Below are positions 11,801 to 59,687 of a stretch of 64,000 bases of DNA, piece after piece. The notes under the pieces were generated by a model, which saw nothing but the letters and a program-made list of their open reading frames with translations, did no database searches and had not been told where the DNA came from. The stretch comes from Rhizobium sp. NZLR1 (GTDB taxonomy: Bacteria > Pseudomonadota > Alphaproteobacteria > Rhizobiales > Rhizobiaceae), in assembly GCF_017357385.1 (NCBI RefSeq), contig NZ_CP071632.1:3477501-3541500 (forward strand), in the 5' to 3' direction. The translations under genes were made by a program, and so were the position numbers. How positions within the stretch are numbered: position 1 is the stretch's first letter; the number at the start of each line of letters is the position of its first letter.

Positions 11801-11825
11801 GGAACCTCGGATTGGCGCGGTCGTT
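11801..11825 (+). promoter_or_regulatory. EcfG-type (general stress) promoter
   Basis: GGAAC (11801-11805), a 16 bp spacer and CGTT (11822-11825) match the alphaproteobacterial EcfG consensus exactly. It is on the same strand as the glycine-zipper protein gene, whose ATG is 33 bp downstream. This predicts induction by the EcfG sigma factor encoded at about 27 kb. Confidence 0.75.
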
Positions 11826-11858: not shown

Positions 11859-12254
11859 ATGTACAAGATTCTACTTGTCTCCAGCGCCCTTGCGCTGTCG
11901 TCACTTGCAACCAATGCGCTCGCTGATGGCGCCGTGACCGGTGCAGCCGGCGGCGCCATCACCGGCGCGATCGTCGGTGGCCCCGTGGGTGCCGCTATTG
12001 GCGGCGTAGCCGGTGGTGTCGCCGGCGCCGTTGTCGATCCGCCGCCGCGCGAGGTAGTCACCTACGTCCAGCAGCAGCCGGCCCCGACCGCCTCCGTGGT
12101 CGTCCAGGAACCAATCGTCGTCGGCAAGCCGCTTCCGGCCGATGTCGTCGTCACACCGGTGCCGGACAACCCGAAATACGCCTATACGGTCATCAACAAT
12201 CAACATGTGATCGTCGAACCCCGCACCCACCGCGTGGTGCAGGTCATAGAATAA
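11859..12254 (+). CDS. Exported glycine-zipper protein with C-terminal DUF1236-like region
   Basis: A 131-residue protein. It has a signal peptide (MYKILLVSSALALSSLATNA, cleavage near ALA). A glycine/alanine zipper follows (about residues 24-60, repeated GGxxGxxxG), then a proline-rich linker and a C-terminal region ending HVIVEPRTHRVVQVIE. That ending resembles the DUF1236 domain of rhizobial periplasmic proteins. AAAGGAG precedes the ATG. A perfect EcfG-type promoter lies just upstream and an intrinsic terminator follows. Likely a stress-induced envelope protein; molecular function unknown. Confidence 0.85.
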   Translation: MYKILLVSSALALSSLATNALADGAVTGAAGGAITGAIVGGPVGAAIGGVAGGVAGAVVDPPPREVVTYVQQQPAPTASVVVQEPIVVGKPLPADVVVTPVPDNPKYAYTVINNQHVIVEPRTHRVVQVIE

Positions 12255-25879: not shown

Positions 25880-25904
25880 GGAACTTTTGATCGCCCGGCA
25901 CGTT
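25880..25904 (+). promoter_or_regulatory. EcfG-type (general stress) promoter
   Basis: GGAAC (25880-25884), 16 bp, CGTT (25901-25904): an exact match to the EcfG consensus. It reads toward the DUF883 gene, whose ATG is 110 bp downstream. The leader between them contains no other gene. Confidence 0.72.
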
Positions 25905-26014
25905 TTCGGCAGTGATCTGGGTCAATGCCGGGCAATATCATTCATGCAACGAACGGTGGCGACCCCAGTGCGAAATAGGCGGGCTTGCGCGCGCCCCAGC
26001 CAATGGAGACAGCC

Positions 26015-26359
26015 ATGAGCTATTCTATCTTCCAATCCGGCCGCAGCCGCCGCAATGGTACTTTCCACAATCTGGAATCCGGCATCGAGGAGCAGGTCGA
26101 GGCGCTGCGCGACGAACTCGCGGAACTGACACGCCTCGTCGGCAAGAGTTCGCGCCACCAGGGCGAAAAAATCCGCAGTCAAGCCGGCGCCGGTTATGAG
26201 GACCTGCTCGGCCGCAGCGAGGATCTGCTACGCGAATTGCAGCACGGCTACGAGCGTAGCGCGACCGAAATGCGCGAGACCGTCCGCAAACATCCGCTGA
26301 CAACGATCGGCGCCGCAGCCGCTTTCGGCCTGGTTATCGCCTTCCTCGCCCGCCGCTGA
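26015..26359 (+). CDS. DUF883/ElaB-like membrane-anchored protein
   Basis: A 114-residue protein. It has a polar coiled-coil-prone middle (EEQVEALRDELAELTRLVGK, then GRSEDLLRELQHGYERSATEM) and a C-terminal membrane helix (TIGAAAAFGLVIAFLARR). This is the ElaB/YqjD DUF883 layout. Such tail-anchored proteins can bind ribosomes at the membrane in stationary phase. Start at ATG 26015 with GGAG upstream. The EcfG-type promoter upstream fits a stress role. It lies 9 bp before a second membrane-protein gene. Confidence 0.85.
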   Translation: MSYSIFQSGRSRRNGTFHNLESGIEEQVEALRDELAELTRLVGKSSRHQGEKIRSQAGAGYEDLLGRSEDLLRELQHGYERSATEMRETVRKHPLTTIGAAAAFGLVIAFLARR

Positions 26360-26984: not shown

Positions 26985-27548
26985 TCAGAACGCAAACGCC
27001 TTCGACGTCAGCGGCGCCGAGGTGGCGTCGGGGCCGAAATCGGCCTCGCCGGATATCTGCAGCAATTCCTGCAGCCGCTGACGGGCGCGGTTGACGCGGC
27101 TCTTGATGGTGCCGACGGCGCAGCCGCAGATTTCGGCCGCCTCCTCGTAGGAAAAACCCGAGGCGCCGACGAGGATGATCGCCTCGCGCTGGTCCGGCGG
27201 CAACTGGTCGAGCGCTTTCTTGAAGTCCTGCAGATCGAGCGCGCCGTATTGCGAGGGGTGCATCGCCATCGATTCCGTGAACAGCCCGTCGCTGTCCTGG
27301 ACCTCGCGGCCGCTCTTACGCATCTGGCTGTAGAGTTCATTGCGCAGGATCGTGAACAGCCAGGCCTTCATATTCGTGCCCATCTCAAAATGATCCTGCT
27401 TGGCCCAGGCCTTCATGATGGTGTCCTGGACGAGATCGTCGGCACGATCATGCCGCCCGATGAGCGATATTGCGAAGGCGCGGAGACTTGGGAGGGCCGC
27501 CAGCAGTTCCCGCTTGAAGCTGGGTTGCGCTTTATCTTCCATGCGCAC
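26985..27548 (-). CDS. ecfG: General stress ECF sigma factor EcfG
   Basis: A 187-residue ECF15-type sigma factor. Region 2 is FAISLIGRHDRADDLVQDTI with KAWAKQDHFEMGTNMKAWLF. Region 4 is LPPDQREAIILVGASGFSYE then AAEICGCAVGTIKSRVNRAR. It recognises GGAAC-N16/17-CGTT promoters and is held inactive by NepR until phosphorylated PhyR binds NepR. It lies 4 bp downstream of nepR and is divergent from phyR, the standard rhizobial layout. Start 27548 or two codons later at 27542. It is probably autoregulated through the promoter at 27909-27933. Confidence 0.93.
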   Translation of the reverse strand: MRMEDKAQPSFKRELLAALPSLRAFAISLIGRHDRADDLVQDTIMKAWAKQDHFEMGTNMKAWLFTILRNELYSQMRKSGREVQDSDGLFTESMAMHPSQYGALDLQDFKKALDQLPPDQREAIILVGASGFSYEEAAEICGCAVGTIKSRVNRARQRLQELLQISGEADFGPDATSAPLTSKAFAF

Positions 27549-27552
27549 GATC

Positions 27553-27759
27553 CTATTCGGCCATCTTGGCAGAAGCCATCATTTCGGCATGGTCGAGCTT
27601 TTCGAGAAGATCGAGAAAACGATCGGGGATCGCCTCCCCTTGCGCAGAGGCATACAGCGACCGCAGCCTGACGCCGATCTGATTGTTCGGGTCCAGTATA
27701 TCGCTTGCCCGCAGCTCCAGCTTGCGCTGGTCGGCTGCTTCTTTCTTGCGTGTAATCAT
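27553..27759 (-). CDS. nepR: NepR anti-sigma factor
   Basis: A 68-residue protein with the NepR core NNQIGVRLRSLYASAQGEAI followed by PDRFLDLLEKLD, the two helices that clamp EcfG. Start chosen at ATG 27759: GAGAAG lies 8 bp upstream and the length matches the family. The frame is open to 27870, with no SD at its earlier ATGs. It is 4 bp upstream of ecfG and cotranscribed. Phosphorylated PhyR, encoded divergently, sequesters it. Confidence 0.88.
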   Translation of the reverse strand: MITRKKEAADQRKLELRASDILDPNNQIGVRLRSLYASAQGEAIPDRFLDLLEKLDHAEMMASAKMAE

Positions 27760-27942: not shown

Positions 27943-27967
27943 GGAACTTTTTTATCAAAGTGACGTT
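27943..27967 (+). promoter_or_regulatory. EcfG-type promoter of phyR
   Basis: GGAAC (27943-27947), 16 bp, CGTT (27964-27967), an exact match. It is 46 bp upstream of the phyR ATG. With the opposing nepR promoter it forms an inverted repeat AAAAAAGTTCC/GGAACTTTTTT, because both -35 elements and their flanking A/T tracts mirror each other. Confidence 0.8.
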
Positions 27968-28013: not shown

Positions 28014-28808
28014 ATGACACTTTCCACTCGAATTGCGCCGCACCTTCCTTATCTGCGCCGCTATTCCCGCGCCCTTACCGGCACTCAGACTTCCGGCGAC
28101 GCGTATGTCGCCGCCGTTCTCGAAGCCATCATCGCCGATCTCACGATTTTCCCGGATACGGCGAATGACCGGGTGGCACTCTACAAACTGTTTACGCAAT
28201 TGTTTGGTTCCACCGCAGTCCAGATTCCAGAACCCACCTCGCCCTATGCCTGGGAACAGCGCGCCACGCTCAACCTTTCCAAGGTTTCGCCAGGCGCCCG
28301 TCAAGCCTTCCTGCTCGCCTCCGTAGAGAATTTCCGCGTCGCCGAGATCGGCGAAATCCTGGAACTCGACGAACAGGATGTCATGCGTCTGCTCGACATG
28401 GCCTCGCAGGAGATTTCCCGTCAGGTCGCAACCGACATCATGATCATCGAGGACGAACCGCTGATCGCCATGGATATCGAGCAAATGGTCGAAAGCCTCG
28501 GCCATCGCGTCACCGGCATTGCCCGCACGCACGCCGAGGCCGTTGCGCTCTACAACAAAACCAAGCCGAGCATGGTTTTGGCCGACATCCAGCTGGCCGA
28601 CGGCAGCTCCGGCATCGACGCTGTCAACGACATCCTCAAGACGTCTAGCGTGCCGGTGATCTTCATCACCGCTTTCCCGGAAAGGCTTTTGACCGGCGAG
28701 CGGCCCGAACCGACATTCCTCGTCACCAAGCCCTTCAATCCAGACATGGTCAAGGCATTGATCAGCCAAGCTCTTTTCTTCAACGAATCGACCAGAGTGG
28801 CTGCCTGA
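28014..28808 (+). CDS. phyR: General stress response regulator PhyR
   Basis: A 264-residue anti-anti-sigma factor. The N-terminal sigma-like domain (about residues 1-135) mimics EcfG. The C-terminal receiver domain has the acidic pocket IIEDEPL, phospho-acceptor Asp191 in VLADIQLAD, and Lys239 in LVTKP. When phosphorylated it binds NepR and frees EcfG. GGGAG precedes the ATG. It is divergent from nepR-ecfG and followed by an HWE kinase that may phosphorylate it. Confidence 0.95.
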   Translation: MTLSTRIAPHLPYLRRYSRALTGTQTSGDAYVAAVLEAIIADLTIFPDTANDRVALYKLFTQLFGSTAVQIPEPTSPYAWEQRATLNLSKVSPGARQAFLLASVENFRVAEIGEILELDEQDVMRLLDMASQEISRQVATDIMIIEDEPLIAMDIEQMVESLGHRVTGIARTHAEAVALYNKTKPSMVLADIQLADGSSGIDAVNDILKTSSVPVIFITAFPERLLTGERPEPTFLVTKPFNPDMVKALISQALFFNESTRVAA

Positions 28809-28982: not shown

Positions 28983-29996
28983 GTGAATACGACTGAACCA
29001 TTGTCCGGCATGCCTTTTACCTTCGAAAGCAAAGCCGCAATGATGGAACGCGCGCTCGGCAGCGCCGGGATTTCAATCCTCTGTCAGGATGCCCGGCTTT
29101 CAATCTTCTACGCCGAAAATCTGCCGCCGCATTTCGCGGCGCTCTTCATGCCGGGCGGCGGCGATGCTGCCCTCTTTGGCGACGCGCAAGGCCGGTATCT
29201 GACGGCACTAAAACACAAAGTGCTGGAAACCGGTATCCCCAACAATGCCGAGGTCGAGATCGAAGTCGACGGCGAAATGCGCAGTTATGAGCTGAAGATC
29301 CAGCGCACCGGCGAACGCGGCACACATGGACTTCTGTCGGTAATGGCTGAAGTCACCGAAAGCCGACATCGTGAAAAAGTGCTGAAATCGCTGCTGCGCG
29401 AACTCTCGCACCGCTCGAAGAACCTTCTCGCCATCATCCAGGGCATCGCCACCCAGACGGCGCGCAACACGCTCTCTCTCGACAGCTTCCTCCTCAAGTT
29501 TCGCGGACGGCTGCAATCGCTTTCCAATTCGCAGGATCTGATTACAGACTCGAGCTGGCGCGGCGCCTATCTCTTCGAACTTGCCGAAAAGCAATTCGCC
29601 CCCTACTGGCCGGAAACGGCCGGCTCCATGCCGATCTACGGCATCAACGCCCATCTGACGCCGAATGCCGCCGTGCATCTCGGGCTCGCCCTCCATGAAC
29701 TCATCGTCAACTCCGCCTCCTACGGCGCGATTTCCGGTGGCGCCGCTTCGATCACGTTGAATTGCCGCGACGCCATGATCGGCGACAGGAAGGCGATCGA
29801 AATAACCTGGGTAGAGGTGCTGCAGAACCAGTTGGAAATCCACGAATTCAGCGACAACAGCTTCGGCCGCACCGTGCTGGAGCGTGTCGTGCCCTCGTCG
29901 GTCAACGGCAGGGCGGAGCTGAGCCTCGTGCCCGGCCGCATCGAATATCGCCTGACCATTCCGGAAAGCGAATTCGAAATCTTTAAGCGCCTGTGA
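28983..29996 (+). CDS. HWE-family sensor histidine kinase of the general stress locus
   Basis: A 337-residue soluble kinase. It has an N-terminal PAS-like sensor (about residues 10-130, with LSIFYAENLPPHFAAL). The dimerisation/phospho-acceptor segment is LLRELSHRSKNLLAIIQG, and the HWE/HATPase domain carries ALHELIVNSASYGAI. This family commonly phosphorylates PhyR. GTG 28983 is chosen as start: AAGGAAAGG lies about 9 bp upstream, and the frame open from 28893 crosses the EcfG-type promoter leader. No membrane helix, so the signal is cytoplasmic. Confidence 0.87.
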   Translation: MNTTEPLSGMPFTFESKAAMMERALGSAGISILCQDARLSIFYAENLPPHFAALFMPGGGDAALFGDAQGRYLTALKHKVLETGIPNNAEVEIEVDGEMRSYELKIQRTGERGTHGLLSVMAEVTESRHREKVLKSLLRELSHRSKNLLAIIQGIATQTARNTLSLDSFLLKFRGRLQSLSNSQDLITDSSWRGAYLFELAEKQFAPYWPETAGSMPIYGINAHLTPNAAVHLGLALHELIVNSASYGAISGGAASITLNCRDAMIGDRKAIEITWVEVLQNQLEIHEFSDNSFGRTVLERVVPSSVNGRAELSLVPGRIEYRLTIPESEFEIFKRL

Positions 29997-30026: not shown

Positions 30027-30151
30027 GGAAAAACAGCCGGTGCGAGGGCGGCGCACCAGCTGTCTTCACTCACCGGGAGGGGACCGTGAGTACGTCCGGA
30101 TGGTGGGTTGGGGGCGCGCATGTTGGGTCGATGCGGTCACCATCCAGATAT
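30027..30151 (-). ncRNA. Predicted EcfG-dependent small RNA (GsrN-like layout)
   Basis: A minus-strand transcript of about 125 nt is predicted, from an EcfG-type promoter (30158-30182) to an intrinsic terminator (30029-30062). It folds into three units. The first is a 10 bp stem CTGGATGGTG/CACCATCCGG (30138-30147 with 30096-30105) enclosing C-rich single strands and a small CGCAT/ATGCG hairpin. The second is ACTCAC/GTGAGT (30068-30091) with a C-rich loop containing TCCCCTCCC, complementary to Shine-Dalgarno sequences. The third is the terminator. Caulobacter GsrN is a known stress sigma-dependent sRNA with a C-rich targeting loop; this is an analogy, not a proven homology. No convincing protein is encoded here. 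Confidence 0.62.
30029..30062 (-). terminator. Intrinsic terminator of the predicted sRNA
   Basis: On the minus strand, CAGCTGGTGCG/CGCACCGGCTG forms an 11 bp stem (one G-T pair) with loop CCGCCCT, followed by TTTTT. On the + strand the tract after the stem is TCTTCAC, so it is directional. It lies 33 bp beyond the kinase stop on the opposite strand. Confidence 0.82.
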
Positions 30152-30157
30152 CGCAAT

Positions 30158-30182
30158 AACGACGACATCCAACATTGGTTCC
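30158..30182 (-). promoter_or_regulatory. EcfG-type promoter of the predicted sRNA
   Basis: On the minus strand, GGAAC (30182-30178), 16 bp, CGTT (30161-30158): an exact consensus match. No protein gene begins downstream of it on this strand before the terminator at 30062, so the product should be a short untranslated RNA. Confidence 0.72.
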
Positions 30183-57974: not shown

Positions 57975-59687
57975 CTAAAACAGGAAATAGCGCTGCGCCA
58001 TCGGCAGCACCGTCGCCGGCTCGCAAGTCAGCAATTCGCCGTTTGCCCTGACCTCATAGGTCTCCGGATCGACCTCGATCTCGGGTGTCAGGTCGTTATG
58101 GATCATCGATGCCTTGGAGATGCCGCCGCGCGTATTCTTCACCGCGACCAGTTGCTTGGCGACGCCGAGCCGGCCCCTCAAGCCACCGTCGAGCGAGGCC
58201 TGGCTGACGAAGGTGACGGAGGAATTGGTGAGGCTCTTGCCATAGGAAGCAAACATCGGCCGGTAGTGCACCGGCTGCGGCGTCGGGATCGACGCGTTCG
58301 GATCCCCCATCGGCGCGGCGGCGATCGAGCCACCGAGCAGCACCATGTCGGGCTTCACGCCGAAGAAGGCCGGATTCCAGAGCACCAGGTCGGCACGCTT
58401 GCCGACCTCAACCGAGCCAATCTCATGGCTGAGGCCATGAGCGATCGCCGGATTGATCGTATATTTGGCGATATAACGGCGGACGCGGAAATTGTCGTTA
58501 TCGCCCTTTTCCTCCTTCAGCCGGCCGCGCTGCCGCTTCATCTTGTCGGCCGTCTGCCAGGTGCGGATCGCCACCTCGCCGACGCGGCCCATGGCCTGGC
58601 TGTCGGACGAGATGATCGAGAAGGCGCCGATATCGTGCAGGATATCCTCGGCGGCGATCGTCTCCTTGCGGATGCGGCTTTCCGCGAAGGCGATATCCTC
58701 GGGGATCGACGGCGACAGATGATGGCAGACCATCAGCATGTCGAGATGTTCGGCGATGGTGTTGACCGTATAGGGCCGGGTCGGGTTGGTAGACGACGGA
58801 ATGACGTTCGGCTGACCGCAGATCTTGATGATGTCAGGCGCGTGCCCACCGCCCGCCCCTTCCGTGTGGAAAGCATGAATGGTGCGGCCCTTGATGGCAC
58901 TGATCGTATCTTCGACAAAGCCGCTTTCGTTCAGCGTATCGGTGTGGATCATCACCTGCACGTCATATTCGTCGGCGACCGACAGGCAGCAATCGATAGC
59001 GCCTGGCGTCGTGCCCCAATCCTCGTGCAGCTTCAGCGAGGTGGCGCCGGCCAGCACCATCTCGGTCAGCGCCCCCGGCAACGACGCATTGCCCTTGCCG
59101 GCAAAGGCGAGGTTCATCGGGAAGGCGTCGGCCGCTTCGATCATGCGCGCGAGATGCCAGGGACCGGGCGTGCAAGTGGTGGCAAGCGTGCCGTGCGCCG
59201 GTCCCGTGCCGCCGCCGAGCATGCAGGTCATGCCTGACATCAGCGCTTCCTCGATCTGTTGCGGCGCGATGAAGTGAATATGGCTGTCCATGCCGCCAGC
59301 AGTGACGATCTTGCCTTCGGCGGCAATCGCCTCCGTGCCCGGACCGACGATGATATTGACGCCAGGCTGCATATCGGGATTGCCCGCCTTGCCGATCGCA
59401 ACGATGCGCCCGTCCTTAAGCCCGATATCGGCCTTGTAGATGCCGGAGTGATCGACGATCACGGCATTGGTGATGACGGTATCGACCGCACCATCCGCCC
59501 GCGTCACCTGGCTCTGGCCCATGCCGTCACGAATGACCTTGCCACCGCCGAACTTCACCTCCTCGCCATAGGTGGTGAAGTCCTTCTCGATCTCGATGAA
59601 GAGTTCCGTATCCGCAAGGCGCACCTTGTCGCCGGTGGTCGGTCCAAACATGCCGGCATAGGCGGCGCGCGAGATCTTGTAGGGCAT
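57975..59687 (-). CDS. ureC: Urease alpha subunit
   Basis: The 570-residue catalytic subunit. Nickel ligands are in [27 protein letters not shown] and [15 protein letters not shown]. The carbamylated lysine is in [15 protein letters not shown], and the mobile-flap cysteine and histidine are in [20 protein letters not shown]. It hydrolyses urea to ammonia and carbamate. Length is normal. It is 3 bp after the GT29-like gene and separated from ureB by two non-urease genes. Confidence 0.97.

Follow-up and report, generated by a model that had tools for sequence, protein, structure and literature searches.

A probable homologue of the EcfG-driven small RNA ReC64 beside the general stress response locus of Rhizobium sp. 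NZLR1

In 2010, a study of Rhizobium etli CFN42 using a tiling array and Northern blotting reported a small RNA, ReC64, that was accompanied by an unexplained larger band (PMC2881028), and that has also been reported to be conserved in R. leguminosarum 3841. In 2013, ReC64 was described as an RNA with a length of 88 nucleotides (nt), encoded downstream of phyR-tcrY and preceded by a consensus promoter for EcfG1, and it was demonstrated: (i) that its start, as mapped by 5' rapid amplification of cDNA ends (RACE), lies at the place expected for that consensus; (ii) that loss of ecfG1, alone or together with ecfG2, abolishes expression of its reporter, which stands at 82% in an ecfG2 mutant; and (iii) that EcfG1 or EcfG2 can each activate it in E. 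coli (PMC3892343). Subsequent RNA-seq, in 2014, found ReC64 to be up in saline shock (PMC4167512). The subject of the present analysis is an element at positions 30,027-30,182 of a 64,000-nt stretch of the genome of Rhizobium sp. NZLR1 (GCF_017357385.1, NZ_CP071632.1, 3,477,501-3,541,500, forward strand; hereafter the window), which very probably encodes ReC64, a small RNA that EcfG switches on as part of the general stress response (GSR).

A second described system that bears on this locus is GsrN of Caulobacter crescentus, which has two isoforms, one of them a 5' isoform, and for which the pairing site on katG mRNA corresponds to the first seven nucleotides of that message (PMC5869019). The same report, from 2018, used expression, place and promoter to predict GsrN homologues in R. 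etli, S. meliloti and Brucella, and then found one in Agrobacterium by a BLASTn search with the R. etli homologue; it noted that homologues typically lie near the GSR locus, C. crescentus excepted, and it drew the R. etli prediction, likewise near that locus, from Jans et al. (PMC5869019). While the name ReC64 occurs 0 times in the main text of that report, we infer from the cited source and the criteria used that its R. etli homologue is ReC64. In S. meliloti, RpoE2 motifs have been found to precede 23 small RNAs (PMC3616915).

The features of the NZLR1 element, in window coordinates, are as follows.

30158..30182, minus strand: EcfG-type promoter, exact GGAAC-N16-CGTT, with the -35 box at 30182-30178 and the -10 box at 30161-30158
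30029..30151, minus strand: small RNA, probable ReC64 homologue; start approximate, placed from the promoter, with which R. etli 5' RACE agrees
30095..30148, minus strand: hairpin 1, with a long covarying outer stem, an inner hairpin and unpaired CGCCCCCAACC at 30116-30106
30068..30091, minus strand: hairpin 2, with the loop UCCCCUC at 30083-30077; the loop plus the next C reads CCUCC
30029..30063, minus strand: hairpin 3, the intrinsic terminator, with the loop CCGCCCT (CCGCCCU in RNA) and five T

The intergenic position of this element, downstream of phyR and a kinase gene, matches the place published for ReC64 downstream of phyR-tcrY, and the two share the same EcfG promoter; this likeness of place and promoter is between different strains, with 88 nt reported for R. 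etli as against approximately 123 nt predicted here. The element is also present in a genome that we take to be that of R. etli CFN42. A prior sequence-only reading of this DNA had called the element undescribed, which it is not, ReC64 having been in print in 2010 and 2013 and an R. etli GsrN homologue having been predicted in 2018; its expectation of EcfG dependence, by contrast, agrees with the published R. etli mutant, reporter and RACE experiments, and its exact minus-strand promoter with no protein gene after it was found as described. For R. etli, the promoter, the start site and the dependence on EcfG have been shown by experiment; we infer that all three carry over to NZLR1. Exact EcfG motifs number four in the window, relative to 0.40 expected (at least four in 0/100 shuffles), and two of the four precede phyR and the small RNA; when one mismatch is allowed, the 17 motifs found are not above chance (14.3 expected, with as many in 28/100 shuffles).

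The predicted RNA runs from approximately 30151 to 30029 (123 nt) and ends in a T run, and a 127-nt segment is predicted to fold at -53.2 kcal/mol (z -4.4), which none of 200 shuffled sequences equaled. This is close to the sequence-only reading, which had anticipated approximately 125 nt with two hairpins besides the terminator. The same reading had described a perfect 11-bp terminator stem; the terminator and its five T (30033-30029) are present, but the stem ACAGCTGGTGCG/CGCACCGGCTGT (30063-30052 with 30044-30033) contains 12 pairs, one of them G-U, and the first T is also the last base of the stem. Similarly, a C-rich loop given as TCCCCTCCC is indeed C-rich, but the loop proper has 7 nt, UCCCCUC, and the two C that come next are mostly paired. 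Each of the three hairpins exposes one C-rich stretch that is mostly unpaired in the predicted ensemble, including that of hairpin 1 (30116-30106), which is located in the 5' part of the RNA.

Conservation of the element was followed across 148 genomes of the genus, all of which match at least part of a 431-nt region, and 91 of which were read in detail. The hairpin-2 core is present, in single copy, in 91/91 of these, and a promoter of the form GGAAC-N15-17-CGTT in 86/91 (85 with N16, 1 with N17), the other five carrying GGAAC-N16-AGTT. In the genus promoter table the spacer between the boxes is variable at most positions, while the columns of the boxes themselves are invariant by row selection, so that only the count of 86/91 constitutes evidence. 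Among named genomes, the hairpin-2 core was found in 109 stretches, including NC_008380.1 (the chromosome of R. leguminosarum 3841, now R. johnstonii); the 80 titles shown correspond to Rhizobium, Metarhizobium and unnamed Rhizobiales/Hyphomicrobiales. In all 109, an HWE kinase match lies convergent to the core at a distance of no more than 400 nt; the GGAAC-N15-17-CGTT promoter is found in 98, and a relaxed form of it in all 109. The conserved position that the sequence-only reading had put forward for testing is thereby borne out, for promoter (86/91 genus genomes), hairpin-2 core (91/91) and orientation toward the kinase (109/109 named stretches).

An alignment of 66 rows (64 from the genus and 2 from outside), made without reference to structure, displays a near-invariant hairpin 2 and a terminator loop that is nearly so. 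Changes on both sides that preserve pairing occur at 12 of 34 pairs, a number reached in 0/500 shuffles; they are divided equally between the hairpin-1 outer stem (six) and the terminator stem (six). Structures slid along the alignment drop to 30-50% paired. The hairpin-1 outer stem is also the weakest helix, with pairing in 89% of cells. Taken as sequence evidence, these patterns indicate that the structure of the RNA and its loops are under selection.

A covariance model (R1) that begins downstream of the promoter, and so excludes it from the search, matches 31/247 family genomes in 13/109 genera; 4 of the 31 belong to the genus itself. From the 27 out-of-genus matches, 26 loci (L110-L135) were examined with 1.5-kb flanks, and the promoter at these loci is an independent check because it is absent from the model. 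All 26 carry GGAAC some 28 nt ahead of the point at which the model begins (L112 has a second GGAAC, and its promoter motif was read individually), with -10 boxes that read CGTT in 12 (11 N16, 1 N17), TGTT in 8, CATT in 5 and AGTT in 1; the CATT form also occurs in the window, in the motif before nepR-ecfG. All 26 also have a convergent GSR gene inside the flank, and outside the genus there are two arrangements of the locus: in 13 loci the RNA faces an HWE kinase (12 within 325 nt, and L114 at 942 nt), while in the other 13 (L123-L135) it faces phyR directly, within 270 nt and with no HWE kinase match between them. Across genera, in an alignment fitted to the structure, 26/34 pairs are changed on both sides, including pairs in hairpin 2.

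A later model, R3, matches 41/297 family genomes, in a draw that largely overlaps that of R1; of the 16 genera counted, three are represented by weak matches alone, so that 13 are solid. (Model R2, built with 16 pairs from alignment A2, was unused, and alignment A4 replaced A3, which included opposite-strand matches.) The strong R3 matches include six newly drawn out-of-genus genomes, and five new loci (L215-L219) all display the promoter (CGTT 1, TGTT 1, CATT 3) and GSR neighbors. At the level of the order, 19/397 genomes match, of which 6 belong to the genus, 1 is a known family match and 12 are others (one of them in the family) at which neither a promoter of the searched form nor GSR genes were found; at the level of the class, R3 matches 3/367 genomes, one being the NZLR1 genome itself and the other two (L329-L330) weak and lacking any GSR protein match in their flanks. 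Eighteen weak outside loci (L136-L139, L203-L214 and L329-L330) were treated as false on account of the absence of GSR proteins from their flanks, where the sole match to such a protein was one of 18 amino acids at chance level (E 0.91; one place seen twice); the searched promoter form is also absent from the right place in L136-L139 and L203-L214. One order-level match, L212 (E 0.005), contains three C-rich hairpin-like segments, yet no rightly placed EcfG promoter and no GSR gene. At the sensitivity used, the family is restricted to part of the Rhizobiaceae (in the sense of GTDB), where the family name is taken from the named matches, and where the stricter filters applied to large genome sets may miss weak relatives. 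The covariance search across Rhizobiales that the sequence-only reading had proposed yields solid matches in 13 genera of the family, and nothing convincing beyond it. In an Rfam scan no family reached its cut-off on the element or on the 14 of its loci scanned, the only sub-threshold match on the element being Burkholderia ncS037 (12.3 bits, E 8.9).

The element and GsrN share control by an EcfG-type sigma factor and an exposed 5' C-rich stretch, and the element lies near the GSR locus as GsrN homologues do; in contrast, the model made here finds nothing convincing outside the family, the sequence of GsrN itself standing outside that comparison. The suggestion that the element is a rhizobial counterpart of GsrN holds with respect to promoter, C-rich composition and position, but had already been published in 2018; that interpretation is partly supported, being right in kind and wrong on novelty.

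Once PhyR has removed NepR, EcfG would transcribe the small RNA, which has a promoter and a terminator of its own. The most likely mode of action is base pairing in trans between the C-rich loops and G-rich leaders or Shine-Dalgarno sites, and such pairing may change the translation or stability of the targeted mRNA, as Caulobacter GsrN does with katG. Counting 88 nt from approximately 30151 leads to a position near 30064, at the GAAG that separates hairpin 2 from the G+C-rich stem of the terminator; by this length arithmetic only, the 88 nt published for ReC64 would suit a 5' form comparable to that of GsrN, produced by a cut ahead of the terminator stem, and the full-length RNA would account for the larger Northern band. 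We tentatively propose, as a possibility well short of an even chance, a Rhizobiaceae family that is EcfG-driven and fixed beside phyR, that carries three C-rich seed loops including that of the terminator, and in which a cut ahead of the terminator leaves an 88-nt isoform with two loops, such that the G-rich or Shine-Dalgarno targets of the full-length RNA differ from those of the shortened one.

An alternative is that the RNA mimics the 16S anti-Shine-Dalgarno sequence and acts on ribosomes or on a protein, rather than on particular mRNAs. CCUCC is the core of that 16S sequence, and C-rich loops with CCUCC are a property of the alpha-r14 'cuckoo' RNAs and similar rhizobial anti-Shine-Dalgarno small RNAs (no Rfam family reaches its cut-off on the element). 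While the near-invariance in the genus of CCUCC, formed by the hairpin-2 loop and the next base, is in keeping with such mimicry, the motif is partly paired in the predicted fold, the hairpin-2 stem is as conserved as its loop, and the other two C-rich stretches lack CCUCC in this genome; we regard the idea as unlikely. Considerably less probable is that the hairpin serves mainly to terminate both converging transcripts, that of the kinase and that of the small RNA, with the RNA as a by-product: the stem starts 36 bases past the stop codon of the kinase gene and is close to symmetric, but no T run follows it on the plus strand, termination would not need a conserved loop sequence, a covarying 5' hairpin or an EcfG promoter, and in 13/26 out-of-genus loci it is phyR that lies nearest, with no HWE kinase match between. 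That the RNA encodes a small stress protein is hardly credible, since although 66/66 rows share a start codon at nt 34 of the aligned RNA, the frames that it opens end inside the RNA in 30/66 rows, with seven different lengths among them, and stay open in the remaining rows, none of the six possible window starts has a common stop in the 66 rows (frames past the aligned end not being followed), and sequence variation tracks stem pairing.

Pairing of the GSR small RNA with katG was assessed with leaders from 30 of 58 genomes that have a katG match, the RNA of the window being used for all of them. For the hairpin-1 segment, pairing with a site approximately 70 nt before the start codon was equaled by no more than 3/100 shuffles in 6/30 leaders (L143, L194-L197 and L199): five of seven leaders of the R. 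etli-like group, in which the G-rich site is seen (L198 and L200 fail), and only L197 among the 23 others. Over all 90 segment-leader tests, which are not independent, eight reached that level relative to approximately 3-4 by chance. A genome scan for GGGAGGGG before ATG found 28 places, compared with 7 for the reversed pattern; no target list is claimed from these, since the pattern is itself similar to a Shine-Dalgarno site and the frames that follow are in many cases very short.

Several observations weigh against an EcfG-driven, structurally conserved RNA that acts by pairing. With respect to control, overlapping SigA and RpoH promoters have been predicted for ReC64, in disagreement with EcfG control, and the same report does not list it among heat-induced RNAs (PMC4167512); outside the genus, the CGTT -10 box is found in just 12 of 26 loci, the other 14 having TGTT, CATT or AGTT. 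With respect to structure, the shuffle control for covariation ignores the relatedness of the sequences; RNAalifold, applied to the structure-free across-genus alignment A2, kept only 16 pairs and lost both hairpin 2 and the hairpin-1 outer stem, so that covariation support across genera derives from the fitted alignment; and the model matches the opposite strand at many loci (21/65 matches), which leaves strand assignment to the promoter. A consensus terminator scan, whose 13 sites in the window are not clearly above the 10.1 obtained from shuffles, omits hairpin 3, probably because part of the T run is counted as stem, and lists another site, 30028-30016, instead. With respect to targets, complementarity to katG beats shuffles only patchily, leaving katG unsupported as a genus-wide conserved target, and no published target or phenotype for ReC64 was found in the open-access library searched.

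While the RNA itself was already known, its description as a family of the Rhizobiaceae that has three C-rich loops and is backed by covariation is new here. The comparison strengthens the published idea of a GsrN homologue within the Rhizobiaceae, and the consensus structure, near-invariant loops and list of genera make the design of seed mutants and pull-downs feasible.

The genes that surround the small RNA on its GSR side are as follows.

28983..29996, plus strand: HWE histidine kinase gene (PF07536; start codon approximate), convergent to the small RNA
28014..28808, plus strand: phyR (PF22029, PF22233, PF00072), with an exact EcfG motif upstream at 27943-27967
27553..27744, minus strand: nepR (PF18557; start codon approximate), with GGAAC-N16-CATT upstream at 27933-27909
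26985..27548, minus strand: ecfG (sigma-70 regions 2 and 4), so called from its position beside nepR and phyR

The location convergent to the HWE kinase of an ecfG-nepR-phyR locus, as first read from the letters, is upheld by Pfam matches for all four genes and by the end of the kinase gene at 29996. On the far side of the small RNA, a Pfam search identified a pair of open reading frames with dihydropyrimidine-dehydrogenase-like domains. Exact EcfG motifs also occur at 25880-25904 (plus strand), 80 bases 5' of a 124-amino-acid reading frame (25985-26359) near the GSR genes, and at 11801-11825 (plus strand), 33 bases 5' of a 131-amino-acid frame (11859-12254) that may be a further gene of the stress regulon. 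Elsewhere in the window, the Rfam family 5_ureB_sRNA (RF02514) matches at 59246-59535 (plus strand) with 125 bits, opposite a 570-amino-acid open reading frame (57975-59687, minus strand) that reads, by eye, like a urease alpha subunit; the most likely explanation of this match is conservation of the urease coding sequence, not an antisense RNA.
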